A DNA stretch of 64,000 bases from Dioscorea cayenensis subsp. rotundata (taxonomy: Eukaryota > Streptophyta > Magnoliopsida > Dioscoreales > Dioscoreaceae): assembly GCF_009730915.1 (NCBI RefSeq), contig NC_052489.1, forward strand, positions 2,259,622-2,323,621, read 5' to 3'. The notes under the pieces are model-generated. The model saw nothing but the letters and a program-made list of their open reading frames with translations, made no database searches and had not been told where the DNA came from. The translations under genes and the position numbers were made by a program. Shown here piece by piece: positions 30,009-57,920 of the stretch. Position 1 is the first letter of the stretch, and every line of letters starts with the position of its first letter.

Positions 30009-30640
30009 CTACCAGTAATCTTTGCAAGAACAGAGTCCATCCCTGAAATGATGAAATCTGGTAGCGTCTCTCACGATGATCTCTCTTCCGACGACCTTGG
30101 CAATAAACTTAATTGCAGAGTGACAGTCATTGCACACTCTAAGGTTCTTCATAATCCTCAATGTCGTATTCTCCGCGTGCTAATCAACCCGAAGGCAATT
30201 GCTAATTTCTCGCTGTGATGACAGAGCATCTGCTCCTTCAGTTCATCATCGATGTCATGCAACACCGACTGTATGTTAGGAACGAATCCAGCTTTCTTGA
30301 TCTCCTGCCAAATATTTGCAGCCATTTCATATATAGCATCTCTCTGAGGGTGATGTACGTCTTCGGCCTGGAAGACATGAACTTTGTTCTTAATCTGAAG
30401 CCAACTGAAACCTTGTTCTTTCTTCACTCCTTTATCCTTCATCAACTTCCATATTTTCGCCGCATCATTCCATCTCCCACAAGCAGAGTAGACATTTGCA
30501 AGAGCCGAATAGGCTCCGCTATTTTCAGGATCGATAGCGAGTAATTTCTCAGCAGCAAATTTTGCCATATCTGCATTCTTGTGGACCTTGCAAGCAGCGA
30601 GAAGCGATCCCCAGGCTATCGCATCTGGCCTAATGATGAT
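30009..30640 (-). pseudogene. C-terminal third (E/E+ and DYW) of a PPR gene, detached and frameshifted
   Basis: Reading on the minus strand, the block begins at RPDAIAWGSLLAACKVH, passes the E domain (NSGAYSALANVYSACGRW), E+ (GFSWLQIKNKVHVF) and the DYW deaminase signature ([15 protein letters not shown], then in the next frame [13 protein letters not shown]) and ends in KDYW with TAG at 30009-30011. The DYW domain is the cytidine deaminase used in plant organelle C-to-U RNA editing; its HSE and CxxCH zinc/catalytic motifs are all present. One base is missing near 30178-30182, between ISTR and the ENTTLR frame. No PPR repeats precede it: similarity stops at about 30640. It continues, residue for residue, the PPR gene that breaks off at 55628. 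Confidence 0.88.
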
Positions 30641-30647
30641 CTCATAA

Positions 30648-30670
30648 ATAATCTCTCTAAGAGAGATTAT
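30648..30670. repeat. 23-bp perfect palindrome at the PPR break point
   Basis: Arms ATAATCTCTCT (30648-30658) and AGAGAGATTAT (30660-30670) flank a single base. It begins eight bases beyond the last recognisable PPR codon. The following ~180 bp (CTAATCAAATACGAG..., TTCTCCTAAAATCTACTCC) resembles LTR-type DNA but has no coding support. Confidence 0.7.
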
Positions 30671-31022
30671 CCTAATCAAATACGAGTAGAAATGTGATTT
30701 CTCCTAAAATCTACTCCACATGATTGCAAAAGAGGTAATCACTAACCCACTCGGAGGATTGAAGGAGACAGTGTTCTCTAAAGTCCCTAACTAGAGGTTT
30801 ACTCTACAATCCTCTAATTACGGCATGTCTATATTAGGTGGGAATTTCTTCTCGCTACCAAGCACATCAAACATATGAAAACTACAGGGTTTGCCACAAT
30901 AGTAATCATTTAATAAAAACACGAATTAGATACAAAACATGAATTGCAATTAATGAAATAAAATAACACAAGCATCCACAACCATTGTCAAAGTATAAAC
31001 CCTATATTTCAACTATGCCGTA
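30671..31022. other. Non-coding, possibly LTR-derived spacer
   Basis: No gene is supported. The sequence style (TCCTAAAATC, CTCCTAA, ACTCTACAATCCTC) is that of plant LTR retrotransposon ends, without an identifiable element. Confidence 0.3.
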
Positions 31023-31489
31023 ATCATGTGGTCATTGTTATGCCCGATTTTCATTCTGGTCATTATGTTTTTAATTTATATGGTAGCCGTGGGTATTGAT
31101 TTGTTTCAGCTGGGAGGTCAATTGGGGTTTCCTATGCACTCGTGTGATGGGAAGCACAAGGTACTGCCATGTGACATTATTTTAATGTGTTCTTCCATCC
31201 AGGTTGGAGAGAACACACTGAACCTCGATGTCGACTCGCTTACTTGATCCAAGTCGGCACATCATCAACTGCCTCCACTCGCCTTTCCTCGCCTCGAGTT
31301 CCTCTCGCGACTTCCCAAGCCTCGGCCTCATTGCCTCCATATGGCCGGCTTCTTCGGCCTCCTCACTGGCCGGCTACTCGCTTCCTCCAAGGCCTCTTCA
31401 CCCTTTGCCCGCCAGACAATATCCCCTTTGATTTCATCTCCAACAAATAGGCTGTGAGACCACCCCTTTGCTTTGTTTTTATGTGAAGT

Positions 31490-33300
31490 TCATTGACACA
31501 CCTCTTGCGTGTGTGTACCATAAGTGCATGGGTTGTCGAGTAATAAAAAGTACACGATGTAGTAGGTAAACGTCGTATTTACTGAGGAATAGTTGTTAGG
31601 AAAGCAAGTAGTGATGCTATTTAGCTATCAATTGAATCAATTCGTGAGTTAAGTGAATAATATCGAGTGCAAATAAAATAAAGAAAAAGAGAAAGGAAAT
31701 GCAATAGGGATAAGGAGAGGTAATTGAGATGGGGTACCAGACATTTGCTCACCCTAGGACTATTGTTTCAAGTGCAAGATTAATTATTATGCCTCCTAAG
31801 CTGATATTTATTGAGTGCGTGAAAAATCCAAAGACACACATCGTCCCCAAACCTAAGGTCAAACGTGACTCAACCCTACACTATGCTCTACTTGCGGGAA
31901 GGGATACTCCCGACGCCTCACACTATGTAAGGTTGCTTAAAGCTCTAGGGACTCGAAGTGATAAACCTTATTCCCTGATGTAGATCTAACCCTTTGGTCC
32001 AAGCAAAAGACCCCTAGTCACAATTAAGCCCCAGCACTAAGGATTACTTCAACACTTCACTATGTTGCTCGCGCAACTAAGCCCCAGTGGAGTTTGTCTC
32101 TTAGCACTTTACTCTATCATGATCGCAAAGAACTCTTAAAATGTGGAGGTAGGATAAAACCACATTGGAAGGGAAAAGGGACATTCCGCCACCTCTCGAC
32201 TCACCCTTCGACCCTCCCCAACCTTGCTTTGTCTAATTCTAATGGAGTGTCACTCATCCACAAGGATTACCAAGATAGATTCTTAACCCTAGTGTCACTC
32301 TAAGGGAAAATTGAATCAATAAGCATTCAATGTTGAAACTCAATTAGAACATTAATTAAAGAAACATAATAGTAGTCAATGAAACAAAATCATCCTAGGG
32401 TTTACAAGTCCAAGCACCTACTAGGGGTTTAGCTCTCCATGGAGTAATACAAAAGCAAATATGAAATCAAAAGGAAATGCATGCAATCCATAGATAAAAC
32501 AACCTTATAGTCCATATCGATGGTCTTGTGGAGCCGCCTGCCTTCTCAAAGGTTCCTTTGTCAGCTCTAGGGCATACCTCGTCGACCATTGCCGACGAAA
32601 GCTCCCTCAATAGCTTTCTTGGAAGGAACTCGATGTCGAAGACCAGTAGAACTGCTCTAAAAAAACCTAGCAAAAGCATCTCCAAACCCTAGCCGCAAAT
32701 GCCTCCAAAGATCTGCAAATGATAGGGAAAGATCCTTAAAAATAACTCAAAGCGCTGTATTTATAGGGGCTGGAACAGGGCATCCACATGGGTGTGTGGA
32801 ATTTCCACACGGCCGTGTGGATTTCGAGAATTGGTTTTCGTGAGCTATAAATAGTAATTGCTACGATACTTTTTATTCTGATGATTTGCTACTGATGAAC
32901 CATTATAGTACTTCACCCGAAATTCTCCCAAATCCATCTTTTCATCAAGGACACATGAATGGGCACACATCCATGCAGGTAGATCGCGTCGCGTCGCGTC
33001 TTCAATGAAACCACATTGATGGAGCTCTTGTTAATGTTGCACGAGTCGGGATATATGAGTGTGACTTTCTTTGTGTCCCTCCACCTTGGTGTATTCACTT
33101 GAGCACAATGGAGATTGGCACACACTCACATATCTTTGAGCACAACTTGTGTCTTCACATTTGTTCAATCCAAGAACTTCATCAATAAATGCATCCACGA
33201 TCTACTTTTGCTTCCTTTCTTCCAAATTATCTCCACAACCCTAAATGCACAAAAGAACACAAATACACATGCATAAGTGATAAAATCTGATAAAAGTGAT
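31490..33300. repeat. Non-coding nested repeat, probably LTR-derived
   Basis: No gag, protease or polymerase frame is seen. The stretch has the texture of a plant LTR or LTR-flanking region: CTAGGGGTTTAGCTC, a 16-bp perfect palindrome CCACACGGCCGTGTGG at 32805-32820 preceded by an imperfect copy, and a short (CGCGT)n run near 32986-33000. It sits between the left arm of the MULE and the captured gene fragment, so it probably inserted later. Confidence 0.35.
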
Positions 33301-33360
33301 ATTCAATGTAAGAAAAAAATACTTCATATTACTTATACACAAGCATTTATCATTCATTAC

Positions 33361-34015
33361 AGATAACAACCCTAGGTTGCTTTGGAGACGCTACAAGGTT
33401 GAGCTTTCCGGATCGAACTCTAATAGAAGGTCGTCACTTTCCGACCTTGGCTTCGAGTCGCAAAAGCTCATCACCTCGCGATCCATCCTGCGACGCCAAT
33501 GAAAGACCTTTGATCACCTATCATCTCCATCGTCCATATCTAAACTTCTAGACAATGAAGCGCAGCTGGGTATCTACGAGGGTTGTTCCTCGTTTGTGGA
33601 TTTTACTACCATTCCTGAGGATCATCTTCATGGTGAGTATGAAATTCTTCAGCTTTGGTATTCTTGTTTGATTTCTTAGTTTTAGTGAGTGTTAATCAAT
33701 AACTTGTAACTATAAATCATGAAAAAAATCGAGTAATTGTACTTGATTCTTTAGTTGGAAAAAGATTATGGGATTGTTGATAAGGATGTGGATGTATTTT
33801 GAGCTTAGAGAAGTGGAAGTGATTAAGAAGTTAGAGAAAGCATTATAGGAGAAGCAGAATCGCATATGCTTTGCTCTTTGTCTTGAATTGGAGAAAGAAG
33901 TGTTGTCGCCCGGTTAGACGATGAGGCCATGACTATGATATTGAGGTTGCAGGGAGGAGAAAACAACTATAGAGATGGAGGATCGGCAATATCGTAGAAT
34001 GAGTGAAGAGAAATC
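33361..34015 (+). pseudogene. Captured fragment of a GTD-binding (DUF593, myosin-binding) protein gene
   Basis: Degenerate frames within the inverted-repeat element read, in order, a Ser-rich stretch (NSNRRSSLSDLGFES), LLDNEAQLGIYEGCSSFVDF with TTIPEDHLHGEYE, then after a probable intron KLEKAL, ALCLELEKE, LDDEAMTMILRLQ and EKTTIEMEDRQYRRMSEEKS. The last blocks match the coiled-coil GTD-binding domain, whose consensus has LE...LYLELEKER, ADEAMAMILRLQEEK and EMEARQYQRM. That domain binds the globular tail of class XI myosins on plant endomembranes. Frameshifts and a stop make it non-functional. Acceptor-like ATTACAG precedes it at 33361. The donor gene is not in the window. Confidence 0.72.
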
Positions 34016-34679
34016 GACACATCAATCGAAATGTCTCTTTTGAGGATGGGTGTGGATCGATGGGGGACGTTGACTTGGACCAAGTAGGTCGAGTCGACAT
34101 TGGGTTGATGTGTTCTCTAGTCGGGATGGAGAACACACTAAAAACAATGTGACGTAGCATTCTACCTGCCACATCGAGTTAAAATTGGCCAGAAAACCCC
34201 AAGTGACTTCTCGGTGAAAACAAATAAATATCTAATGACCAAAAAGATACAAATTAAAACATAATGACCAAAAATGACAAATGGGCATAACACGGTGACC
34301 ACATGAAAAATTTCCCCAATTATGCCCAAGCATCTAACAAATTAGCTCTCCATAGAGGGAGAGTTTTTCAATCCAAATACAATACACAATGAATACGATA
34401 GAATGTATTAAACCCCCTTCTCAATCATGCCGGAGAAGGATGACCCGGAGAACTAACCGGAGAACTCTACAAGAATTTTCATGCAAGCGACCAAGGTGAG
34501 CTTGGCGACTCACGATCTCTAATCTTCTTAAATGTGGATCCAAATCTCCCTTGGAATAGTCCCTTGAGCCCTAGAGATTTTTCCCCTTACTTCCCTAATT
34601 TCACCTCCAAGAATGGCCCAAAAGAAAAGCAAAGAATGCCCTAAAAATCCTCATAAGTTCTATTTATACCCAGTCTACT

Positions 34680-35035
34680 TACGGGCATAAGGGACGTGGT
34701 CGTGAGGAAGCTAGAGAAGATGGTCGTGAGCCTTACGGGAACACTTATAGCCGTAAGTCACGTCCGTAAGGTTTTTCTATTTGTGTTACGGTCCAGCTTG
34801 CCACCGTAAGCTCTAGAGCAGTAAACTTTCATCTGTGCTACTTCTTACTGATCTGCCCTTTACGAGCGTAAGCTTTGGTCATAAGCTCCTCTGGATGGTC
34901 CTTACGAGTGTAAGCCTTGCTCGTAAGGTCCTCTGATTTGACTCTGAATCCTTCTTACGAGCATAAGCATACCCGTAAGGTTCTCTAGAAAGCACTTACA
35001 GCCGTAAGGTAGGTTGTAAATTACTCGTAAGCCAT
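34680..35035. repeat. Cluster of quasi-palindromic CTTACG-CGTAAG motifs
   Basis: About ten short units such as CTTACGGGCATAAG, TTTACGAGCGTAAG, CTTACGAGTGTAAG and CTTACGAGCATAAG recur over 350 bp, most separated by 20-40 bp. Each can form a small hairpin or bind a dimeric protein. The surrounding 34340-35300 bp is non-coding and LTR-like in style. Confidence 0.7.
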
Positions 35036-36114
35036 CCAATTTACATTGTCCTTAATCAAATAATGCCGAGGGAGCTCCAACTTCTCGTTTAAGGTTTGGA
35101 ATGCTTCTTTTTGTCTCTCTCTCATCTTGAAGTCTTGCCCTAAGCCTAAGAATGTAAAATACACTAGATTTAGCATCGAATCCCACAATATAATTCTAAT
35201 ACAAGCCAAATAATTAAGTGTACAAAATGATATGAAATGCATGAACATTGTACACTCATCATATAATAATGATTTGGTTCTTACATTTTTCTTCAAGATT
35301 TTTAATATGATTAAAATGAAAGTATGGGTAGAGATGGGCAAGGGTTGTTAACTTGCACGAGTTGGATCGACCTTTGGCCCCACCCGTAGCTGCCCAACCT
35401 ACAATGCCGACCCTCTAGTTCATCAATATTTAATATGATCAAATAACGATATAGGTAGAGGTGGGTATGGGTCGATTCCGAGGGAATAAAGGACCCAAAA
35501 ATCAAACACAATTCGTTATCAACCATACTACACTTTATTTGTGTTTTTGTTTGTAAATAAATAAATAAATAACACAAAAAAATGGGTCTATGGGGTCATT
35601 TCTCTAAGGGGAGAGTGGTAGAAAAGAAGGTCTTGGGGGTTCAATCCCTTAAGACACATTGTTTTTAAAAAAATAATAATAATAATTCAACCTAACGAGG
35701 TTAGTGGCTCACGGTTTAGGAATATCCCAACCAATAACATAGCTCGCTAAAATTCGGGACTATTATAGGTTACCAACCCAATCCACTCGGATAGATGACC
35801 TAGAGGGTTTTTGCGAGTCGAACTACGGGCCAAATGTTGTCCCTTTTGCCTTTTCTGAGGCATGGGATACGATAATGCATGTAATAAATTCATTCAAATT
35901 TATTTATTTATTTTTTAACTAAGTGGACGAGCATCATCAAGGTCGTGCACAAACGAGAGTTAATATCTCAATCATTTATGCCCTTATCTTGTGTGAGCTA
36001 ATGTTTAAACTCACATGTTTAGTAAAGGCACGAGCATCCTACCCAAGGGAGACTTAGTGTCAATAGACATCATAAGTATTTGATTGAAATTTGTAAAAAT
36101 AAAATCAAATTGAA

Positions 36115-36152
<38 letters not shown>

Positions 36153-38749: not shown

Positions 38750-41700
38750 AACTACAAAACACCGGCAAGACATGAGATCACTGCAGTATAAGAGCTGAGC
38801 CCTGGCTTAATTCTTCCGATCTGGGTGCCGATTCAAGGCATAGGGACTGTCTGGAGCAGCAAGTTGTAAAGAGTTTCTACAAAATACCTTTGCTGAATGG
38901 ATGAACCCTTTCTGGAACTCCCCTGGATTTACCGACTTTTCTGTAAGTACTCAATAGTTGCAGTTTATATTAGTTGTATGGGATTGTAAATGTTTGTACC
39001 TTAAGTATAATGAGCGGTAGCACTTACAAGCTCATATGTTGTCTGATTTGTCAAGACGAGATAGCTGCAAAGAGGAATTGGAAAAGAACAAGAACAAGAA
39101 AATCATTAATTGTATGATGAGAAGAATAAATAGAGGAAATAAACAGCCAAACCAGGCAAAATCAATGATTTTATGAATCATAGTAACATCACTGGAGAAA
39201 AGAACTTTCAAATATTATAACACCATTGTTAATGGGATCTTACGTATGGAAAAACAGTAGTAGCAGTAGAAAGATGAGGCATAATATCAATAGCGCCAAG
39301 AGTAATATTGCAATACAATCCTGCCACCTGAGAACAAATGGGATGAGAACCTTTTATCAGAATATCCCAACATCAGAGAAGAATAAACAGCTTCATATTC
39401 ATATTATTTTCTATTTCAGATGTGTCTTCTGTTTTTGTTATTGAATTTTTAGTTTCATCAAGTGATAAGAAGAGTAGGAAAGCAACAGATTCAGAATGTG
39501 GAACCATACCAAGCCTTTTCAGTTCTGGAATGCAAGAAGCTGATGTACACATGCGAGTCCAAATGCACAAGATTGATTCTTCAAAATGTACCACCTGCAT
39601 TACATTTGCAAAAGATCACACAAATCTCACTCTTGAAGAAACCAACTACAAACGTTTGCATACACAAGGGCAAAAGATAGAACTGTATGTATACATAGTA
39701 CTGTGAACTGATCGGCATAGCAATTCACTGTTTGAACATTTCAATCTGTTCAATGAAGCAGATATTATGAAGCAGATTGATAAAATTAAGAATTTCTAAT
39801 CGTAATTTTACATGATAAAGGGACCCAACTATAATGAGCATCATAACTTTATTTTGAGGTAATCAAAATCTAGAGACTAAATGACAGGGGTGGAAGAATA
39901 TTTTAGCCTGAACCTGCCAACATAGGGATGTTTTGAAATGATAGTAGCATATATATTCATTCTTCCCACTGAAAATTTTTACCACATACATAAAACTAAA
40001 GATCTGCCAGTGTTGCAGAGAATACAGAAAACTCATTGAAGAACTCTATTACAAACCCAATTGTGGATAAGCCATAAATTCGAACCCTCGACCTCAACCT
40101 TTGACTTGGGAGGAGAATGAAATACCAACTCTTCATAGTAGAAGTGATCTCCCATTGAAAGCAAACAAACAAACAAACAAAAGGACAATTGCGAAATTGT
40201 GGACAGAAAGTGTTTATCGAGCGATCAGATGCTGTGAGAGCTCTTCATGGGCTGGAGATAGTGATCAATTGGTGCCTTCACAACTCCTCATGGATATTAC
40301 CAGTCAAATTATCATATTGATATCTCAAATTGTCCCTCATCCCTTGGGATTGGAAAAAGGATTTCAAATAGATTCAACTTTCTTATTCCATCAAGGATGG
40401 AAACACCTCACTGGCTTTAAGTGCAAGTTGCTGCAAAAGTTTGGCCTTTCTATTAGTTAATTTTGCTGTTTTAGCTGTTCGTTCTTGTATCTTTTCTGGG
40501 TTTAAGATTCTGTTTTCCTTTTTTGTACTCTTGTTTTTAGTTTATCAATAAAAATAGCTACGCTGTCAACTCTTTTCCTCAACAGGGCATGCTTTTGTAC
40601 TATTTTGCAAAAGGACATCTGATGCTTTGAAATGAATTGAGATGCTCCAGGCACATTCATTGTGCTTCAAAATGCACCAGATTCTTTTAACATAAACCAA
40701 GGTTTAATAGACACTTAGTAGCACTAGTCACTCAATTGTGTGTGGCTATCTTTTCCAATTAAGACAATTTCAGTATCGCTCAATGTTGTTAAAGGCGGAT
40801 AAAGAATCATTTGACAATTTGGGCTCATGATTGTCTAAGCAATAGCTAGTTAGACACCCTACTACCGATTATCCCGGCACAAGACCCTAAACAGATGCCT
40901 CTCCAGGTATCTATTCAATCAGCATTTCCCCAGCTTCTAACAAAATCAACCCAATGTGACCAGAAAAATGAACCAAATCAAATCCATTATGTAGCAAAAT
41001 CAAAAGATGCATTTGTTACATTTAAATTAATCTGCTAATCAAGCATACTTCTGTTAATAATTTGCCACTTTTGAGGCTTCAAGCATGTTGTGTTTGATTG
41101 ATTTCATTTGAGTCTTTATACAAATTTTTTTCAGTATTATTTATAAAATCATAAACAATAGATTTAAAAAAAAAAAATCGTGACTCACTAGATCATAATG
41201 CAGTGCACCCAGGTTCCTAGATAGTTTAAGTTTTCCAAAACCTAATAATTGCCCAGGCATCTTATCAAACTAGGCAGCCCGAATTGAGTGTAGGTATCAT
41301 ATTCTAAATGGTTAAACATAATACAACTGTGTTCCAATAAACATAACCTGTAGCAAACACAGATAAACTCCCAACATATCAGATATTTGTCCCGCTACAA
41401 TTAGTAAATACAAGTTCTCAAAATTCAACAAATGTTAACCATCAAAGGAGCGCACAGATCCCTAAAAACCCAGCAAAGGATAACTAAATGGATAGCATCG
41501 GTATCCCACAAGAAAGATGAATACCAAACAAGTAGTTTTGGATAATAGTAAAGCTCACCAAAATCGGCAATGATTCCCTTGTCCAATACATGCCCCCAGC
41601 CACAAACAGTGATGATCGAACTGAAGTACACATTTATCACAATCATGACAATGCTTTGTGCGCGGAGGCTGCAAAAGGGATTTAACAAATTTTAAGGGTG

Positions 41701-44700
41701 ACTAAGACATAGGCCACAGAAATCTTTCAAACCAATGTAATATGCAACACCTTAAAAAAAAAATTTTGCAAAGTAATTTAAGATGGATAAATACTTCACT
41801 CATCCTTTGAAAATCAATTGTACCAAGTAATTGGATAGGCAAAATACATATTACCAGTAGACAATGATAAATAGCAAGCCCACAAGACAAAAACCAAAGG
41901 ATATAAGAAAGTATTCAAGAACACATCTTTCGATGTACATCACAAACAACCAGTTGCTGCCCAAGGTTTGATCGGCTTGAGTTATACTTGGAAGTATAAA
42001 ACTACAGAATACAATTTCGTGAATTTCTATAGAACGGACAAATGTTTCATTAACATGAACATGTTTAAAGCAGGATTGTACCTTCTAGTTTCAAATTTTA
42101 ATTTTTTAAAACTGATGTTCACAAATAACAAACCTCCGTCCAAAGAATACAAAGAATGATGATGCATGAGTGCATGGCCAAAAAGTTGCTTTACTTGCCT
42201 TCCAATGTAACTCTAGTAAAAAGCATCAATTTTGAAAAACCAGTTTGATGAGCCGGTATATCATAACTTTCTCACAAAATTTGACAATAGCAGCATTTTT
42301 CATGTCATCTTGAAACCAAAACAAAATCTCAACACTTATAAATTGTTCTACATAAATTTATTTGGACTTGGAACATGAATATATTTGAAATCAAGTATAT
42401 TTATAAATAAAGATACAGGATATTGTGGCCTCAAACTGCATGTTGTCAATTAATTGTTGGTATGCCTAAGCATCCATAAGACTGACATATAAGCTTGTAT
42501 AGGGATATGTGAACATGGCAAAGGAAATAGAAATTGAGTAGATTCATACGTGCACCAAACAAAAGTATAAGATTTGACAGCCAATATCGCATCTCTAATC
42601 GCATTAATTAGATTGCTATAATAATAATTTGAATTGAGATGTCAAAATGGCATAAATCATTTAAAAATGAGAGTATCTAAGACTACAGATTAGATGCTAT
42701 AGTAGTAAATGCACTATTAGTGGATAATAATTAAGAGAGCATTCTAGAACCTAGGATTTAGCACAATTGCACTGGGGCAGCGCATGAGTTTTACCGCAGA
42801 AACAAGAATTAAAGTATCTGAACATCGTAAATGGAGAAACAATATTGATATGAGAGCAATAAACAAAAGAAAATTAAGAATATCAACATGGTACCTGAAT
42901 AACAATATTACAGTATGCACGGAATCCAGTTCCTGCCACAATGAAGTAAAATGTTGTCACACAATTTGAGAGCATCAGGAATGGACAATTACACCATTAT
43001 CAAAGAATCTAATATTAAAAGTCGTCTGGGAAAATCAGGAAAATTTGATACTATGTGCTCACTGTCAAAAGAAGTGAAGTTGAATATCACAAATGAAGGT
43101 ATTCAAGAATGCTTTAGCCTTGAAGTTGGAAATTTTCACAGCAAACTAAATTTCACAAACTAATGTGCATGATTTAATCTAATATAGTGATTTATAGTTT
43201 TGATATCCAAGAATATTTACAATAAAATAAGCTTAAAGGTTCTAAAGGAAGAGTCTTCCTAATTAACAGATCATGTAATAATTACTTATAACGGAGCATG
43301 ATTTGGAATACAGAATGCTCTCAACAAACTAGATTTAAACTACAGTTAGTGTCGAGCAAATCCGCTAAAACTGATGCCCAAAATCCAAGCTGAAAACTAG
43401 AAAAACATTTGTGGAATGAGTAAGTTAGCTCATCAAAATCTAGAAGGCAAATGCATGAGATCCATGAGACTGAACATCATGATGACACAGTACATAGTCT
43501 TAAGCTCAGAAAGCTAATGTGCACCCACTCTTAATTCACTTGGGCAATAATAATTGTGTTTCACATATGTGGAATGGAATACAATTTTAGTAAATGTTGC
43601 TACCCCTCTCTAACCAGTAGGAATGAGTTCATTTTCTAGTACGGAGCTCTCACTACCCTCTCATTTCATTAATCTCATAGGTTGTCAGGATGAGTGCTGT
43701 GAAATCATTAAAAGCCAACAACAGTTTTATGATCAAAAACTGAGCTTTGATGAGATTTTTCACTTAAGTGACTGCAGGTACTCATGCATTCAGTCAGATA
43801 ACATTAGTACCAACAACGCTTATTACAGATTTATCCTTTTCATTTGCCTTTCCAAGCAAACACCAATCCTCAATGCTAGCAGTAAAACATCCCAAATAAC
43901 TACAAACATCCATTCCAGACACACTGATCATCCTAGGCATGTAATTTTAGCGTGTCCCATTTGGGACGAGTCCTGCATTCAACATGTGTCACATCAACAG
44001 CAGCATCACAATGAAAGAAATTATATATCTCCAGCCTCTCCTAGAACAACTCTAAATAAATAAGCATAGCACTTATTGAACGAGGAATTTATGACATGAA
44101 TCTACTATACAATGAAAGCTTTTTGAAAATCTATATATATATATATAGATAGAATTTCCACCTGCTGGATGATCCAGGGGGATACAAATCCATGACAATT
44201 TTCAACCATTCTGAAGGGTACTTTCCAAAATGGCTGCGATCTGTGGAAGGAATCAAATTTCCATTTCTTGAAGTAGACTGTCTTTGCTTGATCATTAGAA
44301 AAATACAGAAGTAAGATGCAAGAAAGAACAATAAATAAGATTGCATTTCCAAACAGATAACAGGAAACCTTACTTGGGAATCGCAATGGCTCAGAAGGAA
44401 GCAGTTGTCTCATACTCGGACCTCATTAAAAGCATCAAATGACAACATACCTATTATGCTCATGATACGATGCACAGGAAGATAAAGAGTAGCTTAGCAT
44501 TCTTTTTATTTAAATGATGACCAAAGTGAAATTCAAAGGGCCAGAGAGAGGCAAGTGTCACTACCCTGGTGATGAACCCGATGTGAAGAAGTATTGAACT
44601 AATGTAGCAGCAAACAGCCCCAAGTATAATATAGTATACCTAAAACAATAAGGAAGAGGTAAAATAAAGGCAAATTCAATTGAATAAATATGTAAACTCT

Positions 44701-47700
44701 ATGAAAAGATATTCACACCGATTATTGATCTAAGCTCAGAACATAATAAAAGTCAACCAGAAAATGAAAAGTATTGCATTGCCATTTAGTCAACCAAAGA
44801 ACAGCATACCAAAAAATAAAGGGAATTTTGCATACAAAACCTACAGAAGTGCATGATTATATATATAATTGAATTTCAACAGTCTACTAATATTCGGGGG
44901 TATGCATTCCAATATGATTTTCATGGAATATATATGCAATTATGCACTTTCACAGAGAAACATACTCAAATTACCAAAAGTAAACATGCTGAAGAGACTA
45001 TGGAAAGGGATTTTCCACAAGAACTGGAGTCTGTTTACAATTTGAAAGTCGTCATGAAAGATGAAGAGATAAGGGAGCACTCAATCCATTATATATTACA
45101 GAATCAATACATATTGACAATAAAGAAACTTTTCAAACTATAAATTACTCGCAGATTTATGTTCAACATGTAAAAGAGTCTGCTGAACCTAGTTATTCAC
45201 ACTACATGCAAGGTAAGTTACAATTCTATGATCCAAAGTATTGAAAAAAGGAGAAAACCTTTATGACCATCAAATGAACGTAAATTCTTATGCAGATTTA
45301 ACTGCAAGATATCCATAACATGAAAATTCAGCCTTCAACAAAGGGGGTTATCTTAGTAGCATATGCATTTCAAACACAAAAATTACACAGATCAAATATG
45401 TTCCAACTAAATGATGGAACGTATAAACTAATAGCAGAATATGATGCATGTTGTGATATTTGTATGAACAGACACCGAACTGAATGAAGTTGGTGCAAGA
45501 AGATATGAGGATGATAATTTTCCTTTTAAGGGAGTGCAGCTAAAATGGAGAAAAGCACATTAAGAAACACAACAAGTTGGTACAGTTTTGATAAGTCAAT
45601 ATAGCATCACTAGAAAAAGGCTTACCAAAAATTCAGTAGAATAAAGGAAAATATTTGACTAGTATCAGAAGTGATTTAGGACATTAGGTTTTGGTTTTAG
45701 GCATTGTCCTAATTAAGAGAGGTTAAGGAATCATACATCCCTGCACACATTGTAAAAAGGGAAAAGAAGAAGATCTAAAGAAGAAGAACATCAGAACATT
45801 CAAAGTATGTGCAATTCAATAGTGTCTCATGGTCGCTGGTTTGGTCCAAGCTACACAGTTTAACTATTAGCAAACAAATATTCTGAATACAGGTTACGCA
45901 TTAAGTAAGTATTATTTTCACCATAAATATATTAAGAACCACACTACGAGTGAATTATCATTTATACTACTGCATACCACAAGACTGAGACATCACAATA
46001 TCTAATCATCAACAATAGATTGCAAAAATTGTTTCTTCAAAGCCAAATTGAGAGAATGTTGTATACCTTTATTCTAACAAAATCAGATGGAACTATAGAA
46101 AGAGATGGTCATTAGCCGCGCTTCTTGAGTTTGTGGCCACATATTTCTAATTTCAAGGATGCATAAAGAAAATGTTGTAGACAACTACGGTGAGTTTGTT
46201 TCACTCTCAAACTTATACTTGCAAACAGATCCAACTTATTAAGAAGTTTTAGTAAAGATAAAAGGAGAGAATAAATAAAAACAGTACTTAATACATCAAA
46301 TATATTGTGAAAAGCTTTTATGCTCACATGAAAGGACTCTGTCAAAAGCAGTTTTGAGGCCTAACTTTTCCACAGAATCTAAGGAAAATCAGGTATTTGT
46401 TGATCAACTGGGTGTCCTCTTCTACTCTACACTTGTGTTGGCAACCTTTTATTTTCTTTTAAGGTACTCACTGTTTCTTACATAAACAAAGAACCCAATA
46501 TCATAGTGACCTCGTATTCTTTAGCAGATTTGGGGAAGATTCACATCCTACATTATATAACAGAATTAATTTATACCTTACAGTAAAGGTACTCTAAGCT
46601 AAGTGGTGTCAGTTGAAGTGCAAAAGTAGTATCTCTGTGTGAATGGTAAGTCTGCTACATCTAACCTTCTCATACCTAATGCTAGAAGGAACCTATATGG
46701 ATCAGATTTTGTTTATTTTAAGTTTCAAAAAAAGAAACCATTATCGGCTATAACCTAAACTTGGCAATCAAAGTTAATTTGTACATTTCCAAGATAATTC
46801 AATGACATGCACACATACAAAAGTTGAAATCTCAAACTAGCACCTTGGTTGAGAATTTTCTTCTGTAGAAAAGGTGATGCCAATAGTTCAAGTCCTACTT
46901 TTTAATTATTAATAACTTAGGCTGGGGCCATCAGGAGAACATTGAGTATGCAGCAACAAACCCCACAGAATTGTCCATTAATAATTAGTGTCATTCAAGA
47001 TCATGTACTTCATGTATCTTTGGTGATCTTCCTATTGGTCTCAATGAAAAGCCTCCTCATACGAATATTATAAAGGGACAGTGCATTCAAACCCTAACCT
47101 TTGAGTCTCCATTTACATCCAACCGCTATGAATTACTCATTTAATCTGGTTCCCACAATTTCGTTCTAACATCAATTTAAACCTTCAATTTAACAATAAT
47201 TTTCATCTATTCCACCTAAATTGGGTATCCTAGAATTTTCTCCAATAACACATACAATAGAGCTTCGGGATTAAACTCAGGTTCATTCAGCATATTGAGA
47301 TATATTCCACTGCGACACCTTCAGATCAGCAACTAAAATATTTATATACGTTATTTAACATTAAGTAAACTGAGAAGAACATATCTAAAAGCATTACAAG
47401 TTCAATATAACTTCTCCAACAAAATTATACAGTCTACAATATAATTGTCTAGATTCTTAATAGTTTTCAATCAATTAAACTATTCAACCTAAGAGAGAGT
47501 ATAATCAGAGAAAAGCCTGGCTCCTCTAAAAGTTGATTCCGAGCAAAGAGAATCACATATACAAAGTGCAGCTGGAATTGAAATAGAGAAGAACAATGTC
47601 ACCAAAATAGAAAGGATATGAAAATTGAACGAAAAGCAAAAGAGCGAGGAAGAACAAAAAGTACCAAGACTCCTCCTTTGTCTTCTGTATCAAATCGGCA

Positions 47701-47945
47701 TCCAAGAGGAACAAGACCCCCACGAACACAACATGGAGAGCACGCCGCGTGCTTTCAATCCCAAGACGATCTTCTCCCTTTCAACAAAAAGGGCACGAAA
47801 TCAGAGAACATCAAGCATTAGCAAATCGAGGAGAAAACCCTCGGAGTTTTGGAGAGAGATTGCGTACCAGGATCGCAGAGAGCAGGAACTGCCGAGGAAC
47901 AGTGATCGCAGAGCTTCTCCCAGGCTTCTCGCGCGCCGCCATCAT
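38750..47945 (-). pseudogene. PAT10: DHHC protein S-acyltransferase, PAT10 type: ~10 exons, several single-base frameshifts
   Basis: Minus-strand exons (uncertain at both ends): 47868-47945, 47665-47777, 44565-44639, 44374-44450, 44162-44286, 42895-42932, 41559-41668, 39510-39594, 39244-39327, 39028-39064 and about 38940-38750. They encode a first membrane helix (HVVFVGVLFLLDADLIQKTK), TSGSSPG, VMDLYPPGSSSR, the catalytic DHHC Cys-rich domain (PPRTKHCHDCDKCVLQFDHH), a helix (IAILLLALLILCLIFLLLLL), NQTTYEL (family TTxE motif), RGVPERVHPFSKG and a Cys-rich end (YTCSDLMSCRC). Such enzymes palmitoylate membrane proteins; PAT10 acts at Golgi and tonoplast. GT/AG borders persist and phases agree, but exon lengths are off by +1 (42895-42932, 44374-44450) and -2 (39510-39594), with more shifts in the first and last exons. 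Either a recent pseudogene or a poor consensus. Confidence 0.75.
40190..40590 (+). mobile_element. LINE 3'-end fragment in an intron of the PAT10-like gene
   Basis: The frame ends with STFLFHQGWKHLTGFKCKLLQKFGLSIS, resembling the end of the LINE RNase H tail (ALFHQGRDLPKWIMKSIKLLG), and is followed by a similar 3' UTR (TTTTGTACTCTTG, AATAAAAATAGCTACG, CTCTTTTCCTC). The poly(A) has been lost. It lies antisense in the large intron between the exons at 41559 and 39594. Confidence 0.6.
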
Positions 47946-49119
47946 CGGCCGGAGACGAACGGGTTCTCTGATTGAGTGCTGGCGCTCTTAAAGGGCATAT
48001 GATGGGAGATGGAACAGCATATCGCTCTTCCGTATCGATACGCTGAACCGCAGGATCAATGTACCTTTTTGTTCTTATTATATAATTTATATGGTCCCTA
48101 ATTATCTGTCATTTGTAATTTGTATTTAAGTTTTTATAAAAAATAAATAAAAATATTATTAAAATTTTAAAAATTTAAAAGAAAATTATAATAGGATAAT
48201 TTTTACTTTTTATATTTTATTATATACTAAAAGTTTTTAAATAAACTTTATTTAATAATAGTGATAAAATTGGAAAAATCATAATTAATGTTTATAGAAT
48301 GAGCGATGTTATAGCAAATAGATTTATCTGATAGATGACAATGTAGATGCCAAGTTTATCATCCACATCCTCATCCATATTTACTAGTATTATGAAACTT
48401 CAGATTTAGACCTTAAAATCATCCTTAAAGTTTTTAAAAGGGTATCTTAAAAGATGTTGACGTCTAAATCATCAAGATATTAAACCCTGAAACCCTAAAT
48501 CCAAAACCTCTAATACTTATGCTTTCTAAACTCATATACTAGAAAGTCACACAACCTTGTCAGACGAGTTTGTGATTTTCAGTTTAGGGTTTAGAAATGG
48601 AGTTTTAGGTTTATCATTTACAAGTTTATTTTTTATAATGTTTAAATTTAGGATTTAAATAATAAAGATAAATTATTTTTATAAAGAAAGAATAACATGG
48701 CATTTACGATATTTGAGAAATTTACTCGGTAAATTACTCTTATAGAATTTTTAAAAATGATAACTAATTTATCCAAACTCGATGAGTTAATTTGGACCGG
48801 AACAGTGTTATGGGTAATATGTATATAATTAATTGTAGGTTAATGAGTCTAATTTACAGCATTATTTTCAATCATAGATTTCAAGAAATTTATTTAATAA
48901 TGAAATATATTTAAATTGTTATCCCTCTAAATATCACAATTAAATTATTTAGTTTATTTAAATATTTAATATGAAGTTCAGTTGAAATATAATTGGAACT
49001 AAAAATTATCACACACTTTATTTGATTTCCTTTGACATCTAAAAAATGTTATATCAATAAGCAAACAATTTATTATTATGATGGTTTGAAATAGATGAGC
49101 AGACCGCGTACAAAATGAG

Positions 49120-49173
<54 letters not shown>

Positions 49174-49345
49174 GGTTTGTTATTATTTTCATTGCTAATA
49201 TATGTTATAGAATAAGTCACCATGAAAATAATGTGACATTTTACATACACAATGAAATGCATTTTATGAATTAATAATATGAAATTTATTTAAATTAGAG
49301 TATATATATATATAATTTCAATTTAAATTTACTGAAATCGAGGGA
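47946..49345. other. Upstream DNA of the PAT10-like gene and AT-rich spacer with long (TA)n
   Basis: Probable promoter side of the PAT10-like gene, then AT-rich DNA. A (TA)n microsatellite of about 46 bp lies at 49123-49168. No gene is supported. Confidence 0.5.
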
Positions 49346-52300
49346 AAATTATTGTTCACCCCTCGTGAATTTTCAAACTTCTCAAAAACCCCTCCTACTT
49401 TTACATCATTCCCTGACAAAGACTCACAGTGTCAAGACTCCTATTACCTCTCACTGCCTCACCTCAAATGGGTCCATGTTATGAAATCCCATTTCGGCCT
49501 CGAAAATGTGCGGAGAGCCGAGCGCCAAATCACATCATGCTCCCAACCTTTTCATGCCGTCGTGCTTCGACAGATATACGACGAGTTGCATTATGCGATC
49601 TTGTTATTCTCCTTATTTCTCCTCATTTGAGTTGTTCCGACTTTCGGCCTCGGGATTTCAAGCTAGTAATACGGTGAGAATCTCTTCGTTACTGGCTTTG
49701 ACTATATCTGCCAGAGGAGTTTATTATGGTCGTATCATCTGTGGTAGTCCTGGGCAGTTTACGTCATACTCAAACATATAAATCGGGTGCTCCAACAGAA
49801 ATGAAGTTGATTTCCATTCTGATCGTCTAGTGCGACTTTCATCTTCAAAACTGAGCCGTATTCGATTTTACTGTTGAGGCGAGTGGCATGTGCCATATTG
49901 TCATCTCCGGCTTGACGGTAGCTCATTTGCATGTAAAGTCTCTTCTCGCTTTATGGTTATCTTTTCGTATATTTTAAATAATGTTTAAACTCCATTTGCT
50001 ATGCACATCCGCTAAATATATTACTATTATGTTTAATAATTAAGCCACATCCGCTTATTTCACTTGTCATCTCCGCTAACATTATCTCTGCATGTACAAC
50101 TTTTCATATTAACGTTTAAATTCTCAAAGCCTCCGGGCAGAAACGGTGATCTTTTCAGCTTTGATCCGCCAATTGTTGCGGTGTACCGGCACGTAAGATG
50201 TGGCAGCGTATAGTCTGAGACTAACGACATGACACCTTATGCACAGAATATAAAATATCCCGGAACACCCGCTCTGCTGTAACTCACCAATGTCTGGCCC
50301 ACTGCGGCTTGATTTTTTCTCTGACATGAAGAGTCACCCGGCCAGGGACTTCTACACTATAAATAAACCGTGAAGAGACCCTTCCCATAGACAACCACCG
50401 TCTGGCCGCCCCTCATCATCCTCCTCCTCCTCCCTCCTCCTCTCTTCTCCTCTTCCCACGGACAACCACTCAGACCGGAAGGATGTTTCGCTAACCTCTT
50501 CCTATCTTGAGAATCAATCAGCCGTAATCACGCAACAAAGAACTATCTCGCCCAGTGCCGAAAATGCTCGTGACACCGTCAATGCGTAGGATTCTCCAAT
50601 GGGATGACGGGCAAGCAATTAAGCTGAGCTTTTCGACTTGGTAAGAGAAAAAGAAAGTTTTCACGATGACATGGATCATGGAGGATTCCCGAGGAGTGGC
50701 GTCGTGAAACATCCTTTAAGACGGCTGTCGAGTATTTATCACTGAAAGAGACCTTTTAGTTACCGCTTAAGAACACTACGTCACAGGTGCATAACCATGT
50801 CGTGCCTCGCGGTTTAACTACACAAGTATTCTTCGGCAGTCCCGACCATGATTGGCACATCGATGGATAGTCGTTTTCATGAATGCGTTTGTTTCGTTTT
50901 AACCTAATGTCAGTATCGCCGACGTTGTGTTCGCCGATGCGCATGTTACGCAGAATCACACGTCAAGTATCTCGAACGTGCAAACACTTCTGTTTCGTGC
51001 TATACTGAGGTTGAGCCGTGAGTGTCCAAAGTCCCTTGTAAATATTGTAAATGTTTTGTAAATGTTTTGTAAATGTTTTGTAAATGTTGTAAACGAATGT
51101 TTTATTTGATGAACTTCTCGAATTTAAACAGAGACCTAGTAAAAACAATGTGGGAAACAAAAGAACGTCATTATAAACAATAAAAAGTTAAACAATACTC
51201 AAGTTACTCTTAAACAATGACAACGTGTTTAAGAAAATATGTAAAGATGTTTAACAACACCCAAGAGGTACCTTATCTTCAACGCATGTCGTTGAAAGCA
51301 TTCAATTTAAAAAATAACATATATTTTAAACAAGTAAGTCACTATATTTAAACGTTTTACGTATTATTTATATGATATAGACTTTATTTAAACCGTAATC
51401 GTTATGTTAAACACTATATGTATCTGTTTAAACATAAAAAACTCGATTTGCTAAACTGGATACTCATGTCGAGCGATGACAATATCTTCATCGCGACAAT
51501 GACATATATTTTTCCTTTTTGCCCTCCGATGGAGGAAAATATCGCCAATCACATCACGCCTAGTCTAACCTCTATGCACTTTGTCTTCATCACATGCGAT
51601 ATATATATATGCACTTTTTGTTTGCCTATCCGATCGTTGTTTGTTGTTTACATCTTCTTCTTCTTCTTCTTCTTCATCCTCATCAACTCCCGCCAGATAA
51701 GACGCCTGTGCCAACCCATTTCTTCTTCTTCGAATAAAGCTCGGTGCCGCCTCGTCCCATTTTGATCGCCTTGATCATCTCTCTCGTTCTTGGTCGGGTC
51801 TTCAAAGATCATCTTCCTTCGACGTGGGGACGATGGCGACAAAGATCAACTCCAGACACATCCTCATGGTTGTTCTTGTTGTGGGATTGTGTCTGCTTCG
51901 ATGCGGGGACGGCGACAAAGATCAACCGCATAACATCCTTACATGGTTCTGTGTGGGTGGGATTGTGTCCCCGCTTGACGCGGTATTGGCCGCCGCCACG
52001 GCCACGGCCACGGTAACGATTCAACGATCTTCCTCAACCGTGCCATGACAACATCATCATTGGGAGAACACTTAACTTTTTTGATCTTCAGGGATTGTGT
52101 CCATCTTTGATGCCGCACTCTGGCAACATGGTTCCACCGGTCGAGGATTCATCAAGAAGAGAGTTAACGATCTTCCCCAACCGCGGGAACGGCCACATCA
52201 TCTACGATGTCCTCCACCGTCATGGCCATGTCATCAACGGCGACAGACTCAGTAACAGCATCAGCCGCCGATGGTGTTGCTATTGTTTCATCGCTAGCCG

Positions 52301-54627
52301 GGCGGTGGAGACAAGAGGCAAGATTGTTTCCTCTCTTCGCAAGTCTCTTCGAATGTGGCGCCTTTGAACGCATCTTTCCTCGACGATGTCGCCGCTACGG
52401 CCACTCGCACGCCTCGCTCTGGGTCTCCGGTGCTTTCAGCTTCTGAGGGATTTCGCGCACGTGCTAGAACGCCCTCCAGGCTCTCAACACGAGTCGTATG
52501 TCGAGGAAAACTCGCCTGTCATCGGCTATCTCGGCACTGCGCATAAGAGTCATGCGCGACATCTTCACTCAATGTCGCCGTGGTACCGCCACCACGGACG
52601 GGTCGCCATGGCTGCACATGCCACAATCGGGGACCGTCATTGTCGGGTTGGGGGTCGTTGCACCACGCGGTGGTGGCGTCTCGCGCACGAGGAATGCGCG
52701 CTGGGTGGCATGGGCTCGGAGGGCAGGGAGAATCGGGCGCCTGGGCCGGCCAAGCACGACAGAGGGACGCCTCCTCATCCCGCCTCGAGCAAGTGGGTCC
52801 CGGAGCAATAGCTTCCGTCCGCTTGCATGGCAACAAATATTTCTCTCGTCAAAGATTCGCGAAATCCGCCTCAGAAACTAACATATGTAAACCAAACAAT
52901 TTCAGCGAAACCATTCATTTTAAAACTATAAAAACTATATTTAAATCGTAGTTGGTTTATATATTTAAACGTTATAGAATATATTTAAAACGGAGAACAA
53001 AATATTTAAACCAAGATGAATCAGTGCTTTAAACGGTAAATACTAAAGTTAAATCGCTGAAATAAAACATGTTTGGGAAACATTAAAAGACTTATGTTAA
53101 ACATCGTCCATGATTTTATTACCCTTTTCCATCGAGCTGTACTTAGACAGTTTCTGGTTTCCCGGGGTCATTGGCTTCCTGTAAGTACTTTCATCGATAG
53201 CACAAGATCCTTGGGATTCTGTACCGAAACGACTCTTTCTTCCCTGCTCCGTCGCACTGTGAAACGCACTGCTAAGCACGCACCGAGCAACCCTTAATGT
53301 ACCCGTCAGGTCGGGTCTCTTCCCGGCGCATCTATCTTTGCACCCTGCCACGCCGTCAGGAATATCCTCCATAAGCCACTTGTAAGCGCCGCCTCGCGCC
53401 TACGCGCAAGACGCCCCATGGTCGTAGATCATCGACATAATCAACGAATCTCAATTCGGAACCGAGCACGACGTATGGAGAAGAGGACTGCACCTGCACG
53501 AGCGTACACCATCGTGAGTTTCGACAAAATTATCTTCTTCTCCCTCCGGCCGAACGTTGCACTGCAGACGTGCTCTGACGGAGTCTCTGTGCTCTCAGAG
53601 GGTTTCGATATAGATACCTCCCTCGAACGCCGACCGGCTCTTTCTTCCTCGAAGACCACCGCGTCGCCATCGCAGAACGCTGGTACTCAAGAACGAGGGC
53701 CACATCTCGAGGTCTGAAACGCCAGAAGCTTTCGATCCCCGAATTGCTATCGGTGCCACCATCGCACCTTTGCAAAAGAGAATCAAGAAGTGGCCCTCTC
53801 GTATATAGCTTCCACGCTGAACTGCGCAAACGGTGTCCGGTCAATAATCTCCCAAAGGTCGTAGGTCATGTTATTCCTTCTCACTCGCCTAAAGGTCTCC
53901 ACCACCGCGTCAAATAGCATCGCCCATTAACTCGTCGACCGCCTACAATCACCAGCCCGACGATAACACAACACATTCAACATGCAAAGATTTCACAAAA
54001 GTTTCAAGCCGCTAAATTAAGGTTTTAAACTGTAACCTCTCACAGGTTGGGTAAACGGTAGATATCAAATGTTAAACAGAGACCCATATTTATTAAATGC
54101 AGAGACGAGAATACTTAAACAATGACAACAAACTTAAACTCAGAATATCTCATTTCTTAAACGTCAACCTCATTTGTAAATCAGAACCATATCAAATGAA
54201 AGTGGAAATGTACATTATAAATATTACATAAATCATAATAATCGAAAAACTTTTTCGATAGTGTACAGTATCGAAAATGCAAACAAAACAAAACCCCAGC
54301 CGAGAAATCTCCGCACTCAACAAAACCCGAGAAACCTCAGATTATCTCCACACAAAACAAAACCGAAAAATCTTCTTTGTAATGTATCAGCTAATATAAA
54401 ACCATACTAATACCTTAGATTGCAAATCATGAAAATGCCAACTAGTTGATGGGGACTTCTCCATACCGTGGAAAGGAAAGTCAAGAATACGGAGGTCACG
54501 AGAGACAATCTCGGAGACAATTTCGAAATGGAAGATAAGACGCGAAGGAGAAAAGCAAGTAAACGGCTCCAATAAATTGCCTCGGGTTACCCCTAATGAA
54601 AACCACCCCACTTCCTCTCAACGCCGA
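49346..54627. repeat. Patchwork of GC-rich and TTTAAAC-rich blocks up to the gap, probable large non-autonomous transposon
   Basis: Composition changes sharply at about 49346, where GGGAAAATTATTGTTCACCCCTC looks like a transposon terminus. GC-rich blocks (about 49.4-51.0, 51.45-52.85, 53.1-53.95 kb) alternate with AT-rich blocks full of TTTAAAC/GTTTAA words (51.1-51.4, 52.87-53.1, 54.0-54.2 kb). Short open frames occur on both strands but none has a recognisable domain or codon bias. A TATA-like CTATAAATAAAC (50357-50368) followed by a pyrimidine-rich stretch looks like a captured promoter. No matching inverted end is visible; it would fall in the gap. Confidence 0.45.
51036..51095. repeat. 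11-bp tandem repeat (TGTAAATGTTT)n
   Basis: About four and a half consecutive units of TGTAAATGTTT, with degenerate units on each side, lie at the start of a TTTAAAC-rich block. Confidence 0.85.
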
Positions 54628-55627
54628 NNNNNNNNNNNNNNNNNNNNNNNNNNNNNNNNNNNNNNNNNNNNNNNNNNNNNNNNNNNNNNNNNNNNNNNNN
54701 NNNNNNNNNNNNNNNNNNNNNNNNNNNNNNNNNNNNNNNNNNNNNNNNNNNNNNNNNNNNNNNNNNNNNNNNNNNNNNNNNNNNNNNNNNNNNNNNNNNN
54801 NNNNNNNNNNNNNNNNNNNNNNNNNNNNNNNNNNNNNNNNNNNNNNNNNNNNNNNNNNNNNNNNNNNNNNNNNNNNNNNNNNNNNNNNNNNNNNNNNNNN
54901 NNNNNNNNNNNNNNNNNNNNNNNNNNNNNNNNNNNNNNNNNNNNNNNNNNNNNNNNNNNNNNNNNNNNNNNNNNNNNNNNNNNNNNNNNNNNNNNNNNNN
55001 NNNNNNNNNNNNNNNNNNNNNNNNNNNNNNNNNNNNNNNNNNNNNNNNNNNNNNNNNNNNNNNNNNNNNNNNNNNNNNNNNNNNNNNNNNNNNNNNNNNN
55101 NNNNNNNNNNNNNNNNNNNNNNNNNNNNNNNNNNNNNNNNNNNNNNNNNNNNNNNNNNNNNNNNNNNNNNNNNNNNNNNNNNNNNNNNNNNNNNNNNNNN
55201 NNNNNNNNNNNNNNNNNNNNNNNNNNNNNNNNNNNNNNNNNNNNNNNNNNNNNNNNNNNNNNNNNNNNNNNNNNNNNNNNNNNNNNNNNNNNNNNNNNNN
55301 NNNNNNNNNNNNNNNNNNNNNNNNNNNNNNNNNNNNNNNNNNNNNNNNNNNNNNNNNNNNNNNNNNNNNNNNNNNNNNNNNNNNNNNNNNNNNNNNNNNN
55401 NNNNNNNNNNNNNNNNNNNNNNNNNNNNNNNNNNNNNNNNNNNNNNNNNNNNNNNNNNNNNNNNNNNNNNNNNNNNNNNNNNNNNNNNNNNNNNNNNNNN
55501 NNNNNNNNNNNNNNNNNNNNNNNNNNNNNNNNNNNNNNNNNNNNNNNNNNNNNNNNNNNNNNNNNNNNNNNNNNNNNNNNNNNNNNNNNNNNNNNNNNNN
55601 NNNNNNNNNNNNNNNNNNNNNNNNNNN
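54628..55627. other. Assembly gap of exactly 1000 N
   Basis: A fixed-length N run marks a scaffold join of unknown true size. Frames that cross it are artefacts. The PPR gene to its right breaks off exactly at its border. Confidence 1.
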
Positions 55628-57327
55628 GCCTTTATGAACTCTTCAGCTTCTTTAAGTAATCCAGAACGTGCAAAAAGATCGATCATACACGCATAATGAC
55701 TCGATGTTGGCTCAATCTTGTGCTTATTCTGCATCATAGTATAGTAACTTTTTACCTTCTTCAACCAGTCCTGCATGTGTGCAAGCCGAGATAACACCTA
55801 CATAAGTTATATGATCGGGTTGAATACCACTGACAATCATCTCTTCGAAAAGCTTAACCGCTTCTTCTCCAAAAACCATGCTGAGCTAAAGCAATGATCA
55901 TTGATGTCCAAGAAATAGGTTCTCGACCAAATCTGATCTGATCGAATACTCGCCTTTGCTGCTGGGAGGTTCCCAGACTTTGCATACATTGTGATAAGTG
56001 CATTGCACACTGAAACCGATAGCTCCCGTCTGGACTTGATCGCCCTCGAATGTATCTGCTTGCCGTGATCTAGCATTGCCGAGCTGGAACAAACGGTCAA
56101 TACTGCAGTAAGAGTGTAATTGTTTGGCTTTGGCCCTTTGTTCACCATCAATCTAAAGAGTTCCATAGCATCATTGTGATGCCCATTCTGCACATATCCT
56201 ACAACCATTGCAGTCCATGCCACCACATCAGGATTTCTCATCGACTCGAAGATTTTCCTCGCCGGTTGAAGCTCACCAAGCTTGACATAGCCTTCGAGAA
56301 GAGCAGTAGAGCGATATTAAATTAAGCTCAGAAGCCATCGAGATGCTTCATGATTCTCTCAGCAATCTCAACACCACCAGACTTGAGTACATTGATATCA
56401 ATGCATTCCCAAGCTCCCCTTTGCAAACAATCTCGTGTCGCACAATGTGAGCATGAACTTGCTCTCAAATCTTAACATTCCTAGATTGGCACAAGCAGAT
56501 AAAACACTCGTTAGAGTGAAGTTATCAGGCACCATCGAAGACTCATTGAGCATTCGAGCGAAAAACCTCAATGCTTCAAAATCTAACCCATTCTGATTAT
56601 ACCCAGCAATCACTGCATTCCATGAAACAATGTTACGCTCTGTCATCTGCTCAAACTGAGCCAATGCAAGATCAAGTCGTCCTGATTGCGCATACAAAGA
56701 AATCATCGCATTCCAACTCGATAAACTTCTCAACGTCAATCTATCAAAAACAACTCTTGCCATCTCCAAATCCCCAGACTTTCCATACATGCTCAAAAGC
56801 GAATTAGAGACATGGACACAACTACTCATTCCAAGCTTCACAACAAATGAATGCACATTTCTACCAACACTAAGCCCCTCCATAGCAGCACAAGCAGCAA
56901 GAACATTAGCAAACGTGAACTCAGTAAGAGGAACTCCGTTCCAAACCATATCTACAAACACACGCACTGAACTCTCAAACCAACCCATTTGTTTACAACC
57001 AACAATCATCGTCGTCCATGACACGGAATCTCTCTCAGGCATTTCATCAAACAGTTGAGCTGCAACATCCATGCAACCACTCTTAGCATACATTGAGAGA
57101 ATGGAATTCCAAGTAAACATGTTCTTCAGCGGCATTTCGTCAAACAGGCGGCAGGCATCAACGGAAAAGCCGAGTTTGGAGTAGACATTGATGAGATTGT
57201 TGGCGAGATAGGTGCTGAAAATGAGGCCAGTTTTGAAGAAGTAGCCATGGATGGACTTGCCAGCCAATGCGTTCTTGGAAAGCAAGCATCTTTGGAGAAG
57301 GGAAGCTAAGGGAGTGAAAGACGCCAT
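55628..57327 (-). CDS. PLS-class PPR protein, N-terminal two thirds; C terminus missing at gap, frameshifts near contig end
   Basis: From ATG 57327 a clean frame of about 290 residues (to ~56465) carries PLS-type pentatricopeptide repeats: NNLINVYSKLGF, FTWNSILSMYAKSG, VSWTTMIVGCKQMG, SNSLLSMYGKSGDLEMA, SSWNAMISLYAQSG and VSWNAVIAGYNQNG. Similarity then goes on with frame changes at about 56464, 56385, 56330, 56310, 55945 and 55800: HIVRHEIVCKGELGNALISMY, SGGVEIAERIM, ARKIFESMRNPDVVAWTAM, HGKQIHSRAIKS and SSHYACMIDLFARSGLLKEA. It ends at EEFIK at the gap. It resembles Arabidopsis At2g22070 along its whole length. Such proteins bind organellar RNA, one base per repeat, and direct C-to-U editing through a C-terminal DYW domain, which here appears only at 30009-30640. 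Frameshifts cluster toward the contig end. Confidence 0.85.
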
Positions 57328-57831: not shown

Positions 57832-57914
57832 TACTTCTTCTTCTTGTTCTTGCTCTTGTTGTTGTTGTTGTTGAGAGTTGGTTGTGATTAGAGAGTTGAA
57901 AGAATGGGAATGAA

Positions 57915-57920
57915 TTTATA
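57915..57920 (-). promoter_or_regulatory. TATA box of the 68-aa gene
   Basis: CTCTATAAATTC on the minus strand, 84-89 bp before the ATG. A short leader with CAACAACAA and AAGAAGAAG runs follows, as in many plant 5' UTRs. Confidence 0.6.

Follow-up and report, generated by a model that had tools for sequence, protein, structure and literature searches.

A split PPR-DYW gene in the white Guinea yam reference is very probably the product of an assembly mis-join inside a repeat

Mis-joined contigs, linked between repeats or between haplotypes, are a class of error known in heterozygous plant assemblies. The 2017 yam assembly (TDr96_F1) was built from map-ordered scaffolds joined with exactly 1000 N (PMC5604175), and a passage of the same report describes the sequenced clone as a heterozygous individual. 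For the v2 assembly, one passage of a further report attributes the few differences from Dioscorea alata either to real divergence or to imperfections arising from the reliance on linkage mapping (PMC9010478). Here we analyzed a stretch of 64,000 nucleotides (the window) from D. cayenensis subsp. rotundata, the white Guinea yam, at positions 2259622-2323621 of contig C19 (31,611,005 bp), in which a gene for a pentatricopeptide repeat (PPR) protein with a DYW domain is found in two distant parts. Searches of the yam's own assembly covered 584,211,761 bases in 2249 contigs, and tRNA and Rfam searches of the window gave no match. The features discussed below are as follows.

25902-29663, plus strand, glutaredoxin/DEP/DUF547 gene (LOC120249621), neighbour of the PPR gene, from Pfam and protein matches
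30012-30628, minus strand, 3' coding part of the PPR gene with E motif and DYW deaminase, matching codons 571-776 of P0001 from D. alata, with a 1-nt frame break at 30174
30629-30630, no strand, junction: PPR sequence (alignment with contig C1614) ends at 30629 and PAT10-locus sequence (alignment with contig C1447) starts at 30630
30630-31019, plus strand, interior piece of a high-copy repeat whose family continues to the left of 30630 in other copies
30630-54627, no strand, 24-kb segment, probably misplaced, collinear with C1447 in two alignments
38756-47998, minus strand, PAT10-like protein S-acyltransferase gene in 11 exon stretches with bounds set by eye, the DHHC exon at 41561-41671
54628-55627, no strand, run of 1000 N, read as a scaffold spacer by the spacer rule of the 2017 assembly
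55628-57327, minus strand, 5' coding part of the PPR gene (codons 1-565 and two further bases), with seven 1-nt frame breaks

The original prediction held that the two PPR blocks belong to one gene and lie on the same strand, and this was borne out, as both are on the minus strand and carry complementary codons of P0001: codons 1-565 align to 57327-55630 and codons 571-776 to 30628-30012. The two parts are about 25 kb apart and fall 12 nt short of rejoining. Five codons (ALPKE in D. alata) lie at the break, and 12 nt of these are absent from both blocks. The 5' part contains tandem PPR repeats (Pfam PPR, 1.5e-44, and PPR_2, 2.7e-38, at 56398-57339) and begins at the edge of the 1000-N run, while the 3' block matches E_motif (6.5e-19) and DYW_deaminase (1.2e-44) in a piece where X stands in for one frame break. 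The 3' block had been taken to reach 30640; the block itself was confirmed, but not its end, as the homology stops at 30629 and the residues just before PDAIAWG are non-native. Since the label "editing factor" derives from the protein class, we use it for this PPR-DYW gene as a putative one.

When read through, the PPR protein of the window is 94-95% identical to P0001 along its length. The gene has eight one-base frame breaks, of which one is at 30174 and seven are in 55753-56465 (55753, 55874, 55956, 56311, 56342, 56385 and 56465), with none in 56466-57327. All eight lie at most 838 nt from the break. The clustering is a modest result: the seven breaks of the 5' part all fall in the first 838 of its 1700 nt (chance 0.007 if uniform; 0.024 for both blocks).

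The check proposed with the original prediction, a search for a second intact copy in the genome, led to C1614, a separate contig of the same assembly (17,972 bp) that carries the PPR gene whole. The yam's own genome gave one further near-identical match to the 3' block, and it lies on this contig, covering bases 1-621 of the 632-nt query, that is, up to window position 30629, at 100% after rounding and with one 1-nt gap. Positions 2184-4179 of C1614 align to window 28635-30629 at 99.8% (3 mismatches, 1 gap) and positions 4192-12557 to window 55628-64000 at 95.5%, and only 12 nt on C1614 separate its alignments to window 30629 and 55628. A single open frame of 776 codons, from Met to stop, occupies C1614 3558-5888 and encodes a protein ending in CKDYW, so that the continuous coding frame lacking from the window copy, which is split and has eight frame breaks, is present there. 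The contig is itself imperfect: its left 2.2 kb is only 73% like the window, and window 27631-28634 is skipped.

None of the eight frame breaks of the window gene occurs on C1614. Over 2321 nt, the two copies of the gene differ by 2 mismatches and eight one-base indels, five of which lie in base runs. The frame breaks would thus follow the pattern of consensus error rather than of decay, because they are single-base indels, mostly in base runs, beside so few mismatches. Decay of the window copy into a pseudogene was considered and rejected on the same mismatch count and because none of the 763 aligned codons had been turned into a stop by substitution.

The C1614 alignments also bear on the idea that the blocks are two truncated duplicates unrelated to each other, for which nothing speaks besides the distance between them. 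Around the break, C1614 is 99.8% and 99.4% identical to the two window blocks and holds both in one gene, and the other genome matches of the 3' block are at most 84% identical and shorter than 300 nt (26 matches, 25 candidates scored); no different intact gene for either block turned up in that search. We regard this explanation as having a negligible probability. It had been anticipated that finding the DYW domain complete immediately to the left of 55628 would mark the block near 30 kb as an unrelated duplicate; the complete domain was indeed found in that place, on C1614, but the 30-kb block proved to be the 3' end of the same gene.

The sequence between the two PPR parts was found on another contig. 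C1447 (67,821 bp) aligns to the window in two parts, 39725-60674 to window 30630-51675 at 90% and 64815-67759 to window 51676-54627 at 81%; 4.1 kb between these parts is present only in C1447, which is otherwise collinear with the segment. There the segment stands in another setting, as C1447 has other sequence to the left of 39725, and a search of this contig with P0001 gave no match to the PPR gene. Each side of the junction therefore continues differently on another contig, the PPR side on C1614 and the segment side on C1447. The alignment of the segment with C1447 has 1191 mismatches and 827 gap openings in 24,742 columns, and a poor consensus in the segment copy, in C1447 or in both is likely, because there are so many gaps between them.

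The base at which the window leaves the PPR gene was examined with the adjoining repeat, 30630-31019, of which 40 of 2023 candidates were scored and flanks were fetched for 12 copies. With C1447 as the reference, the flank to the left of the point matching 30630 was alike in all ten further copies, which scored 85-138 against at most 25.5 for shuffles. In contrast, the window flank was unlike that of C1447: it scored 6.5, and shuffles reached 14. When the C1447 flank served as the query, many copies were found whose matches end at or near the start of copies of 30630-31019. The window thus switches in mid-repeat, because the repeat runs on to the left of this point in C1447 and in all ten further copies, and such a switch fits a wrong extension in a repeat and not the end of a transposon. 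That many copies start at base 1 of the query had made the junction a candidate transposon end; this was discarded, as the query itself began at 30630.

The original prediction offered two readings, a large insertion or transposition and a contig chimeric near 30.65 kb. The chimera is supported, with the switch located at 30629/30630, whereas transposition is not: the segment duplicates part of an ordinary contig bearing PAT10, with which it is collinear, and the junction lies inside a repeat family that crosses it, not at an element terminus. Two observations favor delivery of the PAT10 segment into the PPR gene by a transposon: there is a repeat next to the junction, and the segment has a pair of inverted repeats (31024-31255 and 34072-34306). 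The right border of the segment, where one side of a target-site duplication would be expected, falls in or at the 1000 N. However, neither transposase nor integrase nor reverse transcriptase domains came up in a six-frame Pfam search of 30630-54621 (in pieces, at E up to 0.1), and comparison of the window with itself gave no LTR pair around the segment. The Pfam matches in the segment were DHHC (PAT10), Zein-binding (E 1.2e-5) and CUB_CDCP1_1 (0.085, taken as chance). Transposition is accordingly considered highly improbable.

Two further features inside the segment were observed in passing. A degenerate Zein-binding (GTD-binding) domain at 33828-34035 passes its cut-off (E 1.2e-5) but is in a frame with stops, and sits between the inverted-repeat arms; it is perhaps a gene fragment inside a terminal-inverted-repeat element. 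A dispersed repeat of about 1.86 kb occupies 31493-33352, and most of its best-scored genome matches are 79-84% identical over it (40 of 18034 candidates scored).

We consider it highly probable that the split of the PPR gene is an artefact of assembly, caused by a mis-join at 30629/30630. The plant itself would have the DUF547 gene beside an undivided PPR-DYW gene, tail to tail. Within the high-copy repeat, the left contig would have been wrongly continued beyond PPR base 30629 and so have acquired one of the PAT10 copies, and the sequence that should have followed, with the 5' part of the gene, would have become the start of the next contig; both would later have been placed adjacent with 1000 N between them. 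The window has one run of N, at 54628-55627, of exactly 1000 N, and the spacer rule of the 2017 assembly presumably holds also for the assembly of the present window. The repeat would be the cause of the wrong extension, map order would have placed the two contigs, and the junction is probably absent from every haplotype of the plant.

Against the mis-join, C1614 and C1447 could represent the other haplotype, and a heterozygous rearrangement would leave the same contigs; the placement of the two contigs next to each other also fits a true insertion. One may thus suppose that in one haplotype the PAT10 locus was truly joined, by insertion or translocation, to the 3' end of the PPR gene, with C1614 and C1447 as the unrearranged haplotype. 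As expected of two haplotypes, there are two copies each of the PPR locus (C19 and C1614) and of the PAT10 segment (C19 and C1447), and much of the left part of C1447 recurs on C892; the sequenced clone is called heterozygous in the passage of PMC5604175 mentioned above, and the junction is base-sharp on both sides. On the other hand, the switch lies inside a repeat and not at an element end, and no return junction is found in the window, where the segment runs up to the 1000 N and halts 62 nt short of the end of C1447 itself. The many gap openings and mismatches between the segment and C1447, with the poor consensus that they make likely, also speak against it. If this explanation, which we regard as unlikely, were true, the plant would be heterozygous for the loss of a putative organelle RNA editing factor.

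The contig C892 (34,923 bp; L050-L053) duplicates the left part of C1447, at 98% identity over a 1500-nt probe, and is collinear in pieces with C1447 (L017-L023) over C1447 1-32824. Stretches of several kb are present in only one of the two contigs, a sign of unmerged haplotypes in the assembly. The idea that C892 and the segment together form one lost haplotype was set aside as suggestive only, since C892 matches C1447 in pieces to 32824 and then no further, short of 39725.

The gene brought next to the PPR gene, PAT10, was recognized by its DHHC domain (Pfam, 1.4e-17) and by exons matching P0122 and P0121, and its best three matches (P0121-P0123) are named S-acyltransferase or belong to that set of matches. 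A 3-kb PAT10 probe (39000-42000) gave full-length matches only in the window and in C1447, and the exons of the D. rotundata PAT10 protein, P0122, were found on C1447. The window copy has no intact frame: 5 of the 11 exon stretches are clean (E3, E5, E7, E9 and E10) and the other 6 have frame breaks or an in-frame stop. P0122 has an abnormal DHHC stretch, whereas the window copy is clean there, and the two PAT10 copies of the assembly thus seem to be damaged at different places. The abnormal DHHC stretch of the public P0122 corresponds to C1447 50648-50767 (L022) and possibly comes from base errors in C1447.

The gene order supposed for the plant was compared with that of other species. The DUF547 gene of the window is 100% identical to the D. 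rotundata protein P0241 in three stretches (451, 99 and 50 residues), and two further matches, at 67% and 73%, are read as running into introns. On C1614, the 3' end of the DUF547 gene, the part of that gene compared, is tail to tail with the whole PPR gene. D. zingiberensis has PPR J5N97_017087 and DUF547 J5N97_017088, adjacent in number and on a contig of the same size, and its PAT10 (J5N97_024839) is on a contig of another size. Similarly, PPR HHK36_004079 and DUF547 HHK36_004078 are adjacent in Tetracentron, with PAT10 (HHK36_008771) on a contig of another size. The order in these two species speaks for the mis-join. Among the best 120 matches per search, with matches lacking a contig size omitted and paralogues unsorted, DUF547 and PPR share a contig size in 10 of the 37 species listed for both, and PPR and PAT10 do so in 7 of 22. 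The DUF547-PPR neighborhood is therefore widespread but often absent among the species listed. That DUF547 and PPR share a contig size in only 10 of 37 species and that PPR and PAT10 share a chromosome in some plants are further points against the mis-join; of the seven species with PPR and PAT10 together, two have locus numbers of one series, and the two loci are hundreds of genes apart there (Cinchona 013094/013583, Ulmus 038688/039672). PAT10 is thus sometimes on the PPR chromosome, and far off where the locus numbers tell.

Beyond the DUF547 gene, we observed an array of mTERF genes at 3847-24666, with copies at 4208-5041 (plus strand) and at 5957-7165, 9905-11119 and 13839-15062 (minus strand), each with an mTERF domain, and a further minus-strand copy at about 23385-24666, detected by self-similarity and split over two frames. 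An L1-type LINE lies inside this array at 16213-22271, with an open ORF1 (DUF4283, zinc knuckle) and an ORF2 of 1283 residues with endonuclease, reverse transcriptase and zf-RVT, and a second LINE, spread over three frames, is at 58634-61529.

For users of the yam reference, a conserved PPR gene and one copy of PAT10 would be broken at this locus by the assembly, the assembly puts PAT10 on a chromosome that may not be its own, and an unbroken PPR gene is to be found on the small separate contig C1614. Calls of gene loss or of structural variants at this locus would probably be wrong. The locus offers a clean example of gene halves in a raw window being traced to a mis-join.

Taken together, the split is very probably not a real feature of the plant and nothing biologically new. 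Its closest counterpart is the mis-joined contig of heterozygous plant assemblies, which it resembles in the sharp switch in a repeat, the rightful continuations on separate contigs, the fixed N run and the frame breaks near contig edges. The PPR gene itself resembles an At2g22070-type PPR-DYW protein in its PPR repeats, E motif and DYW domain, and the C1614 protein, with 776 residues, has the length of P0001-P0003; the window copy differs in being split and frame-broken. The window copy of PAT10 likewise has the DHHC domain of its class but differs in that 6 of its 11 exon stretches are broken.
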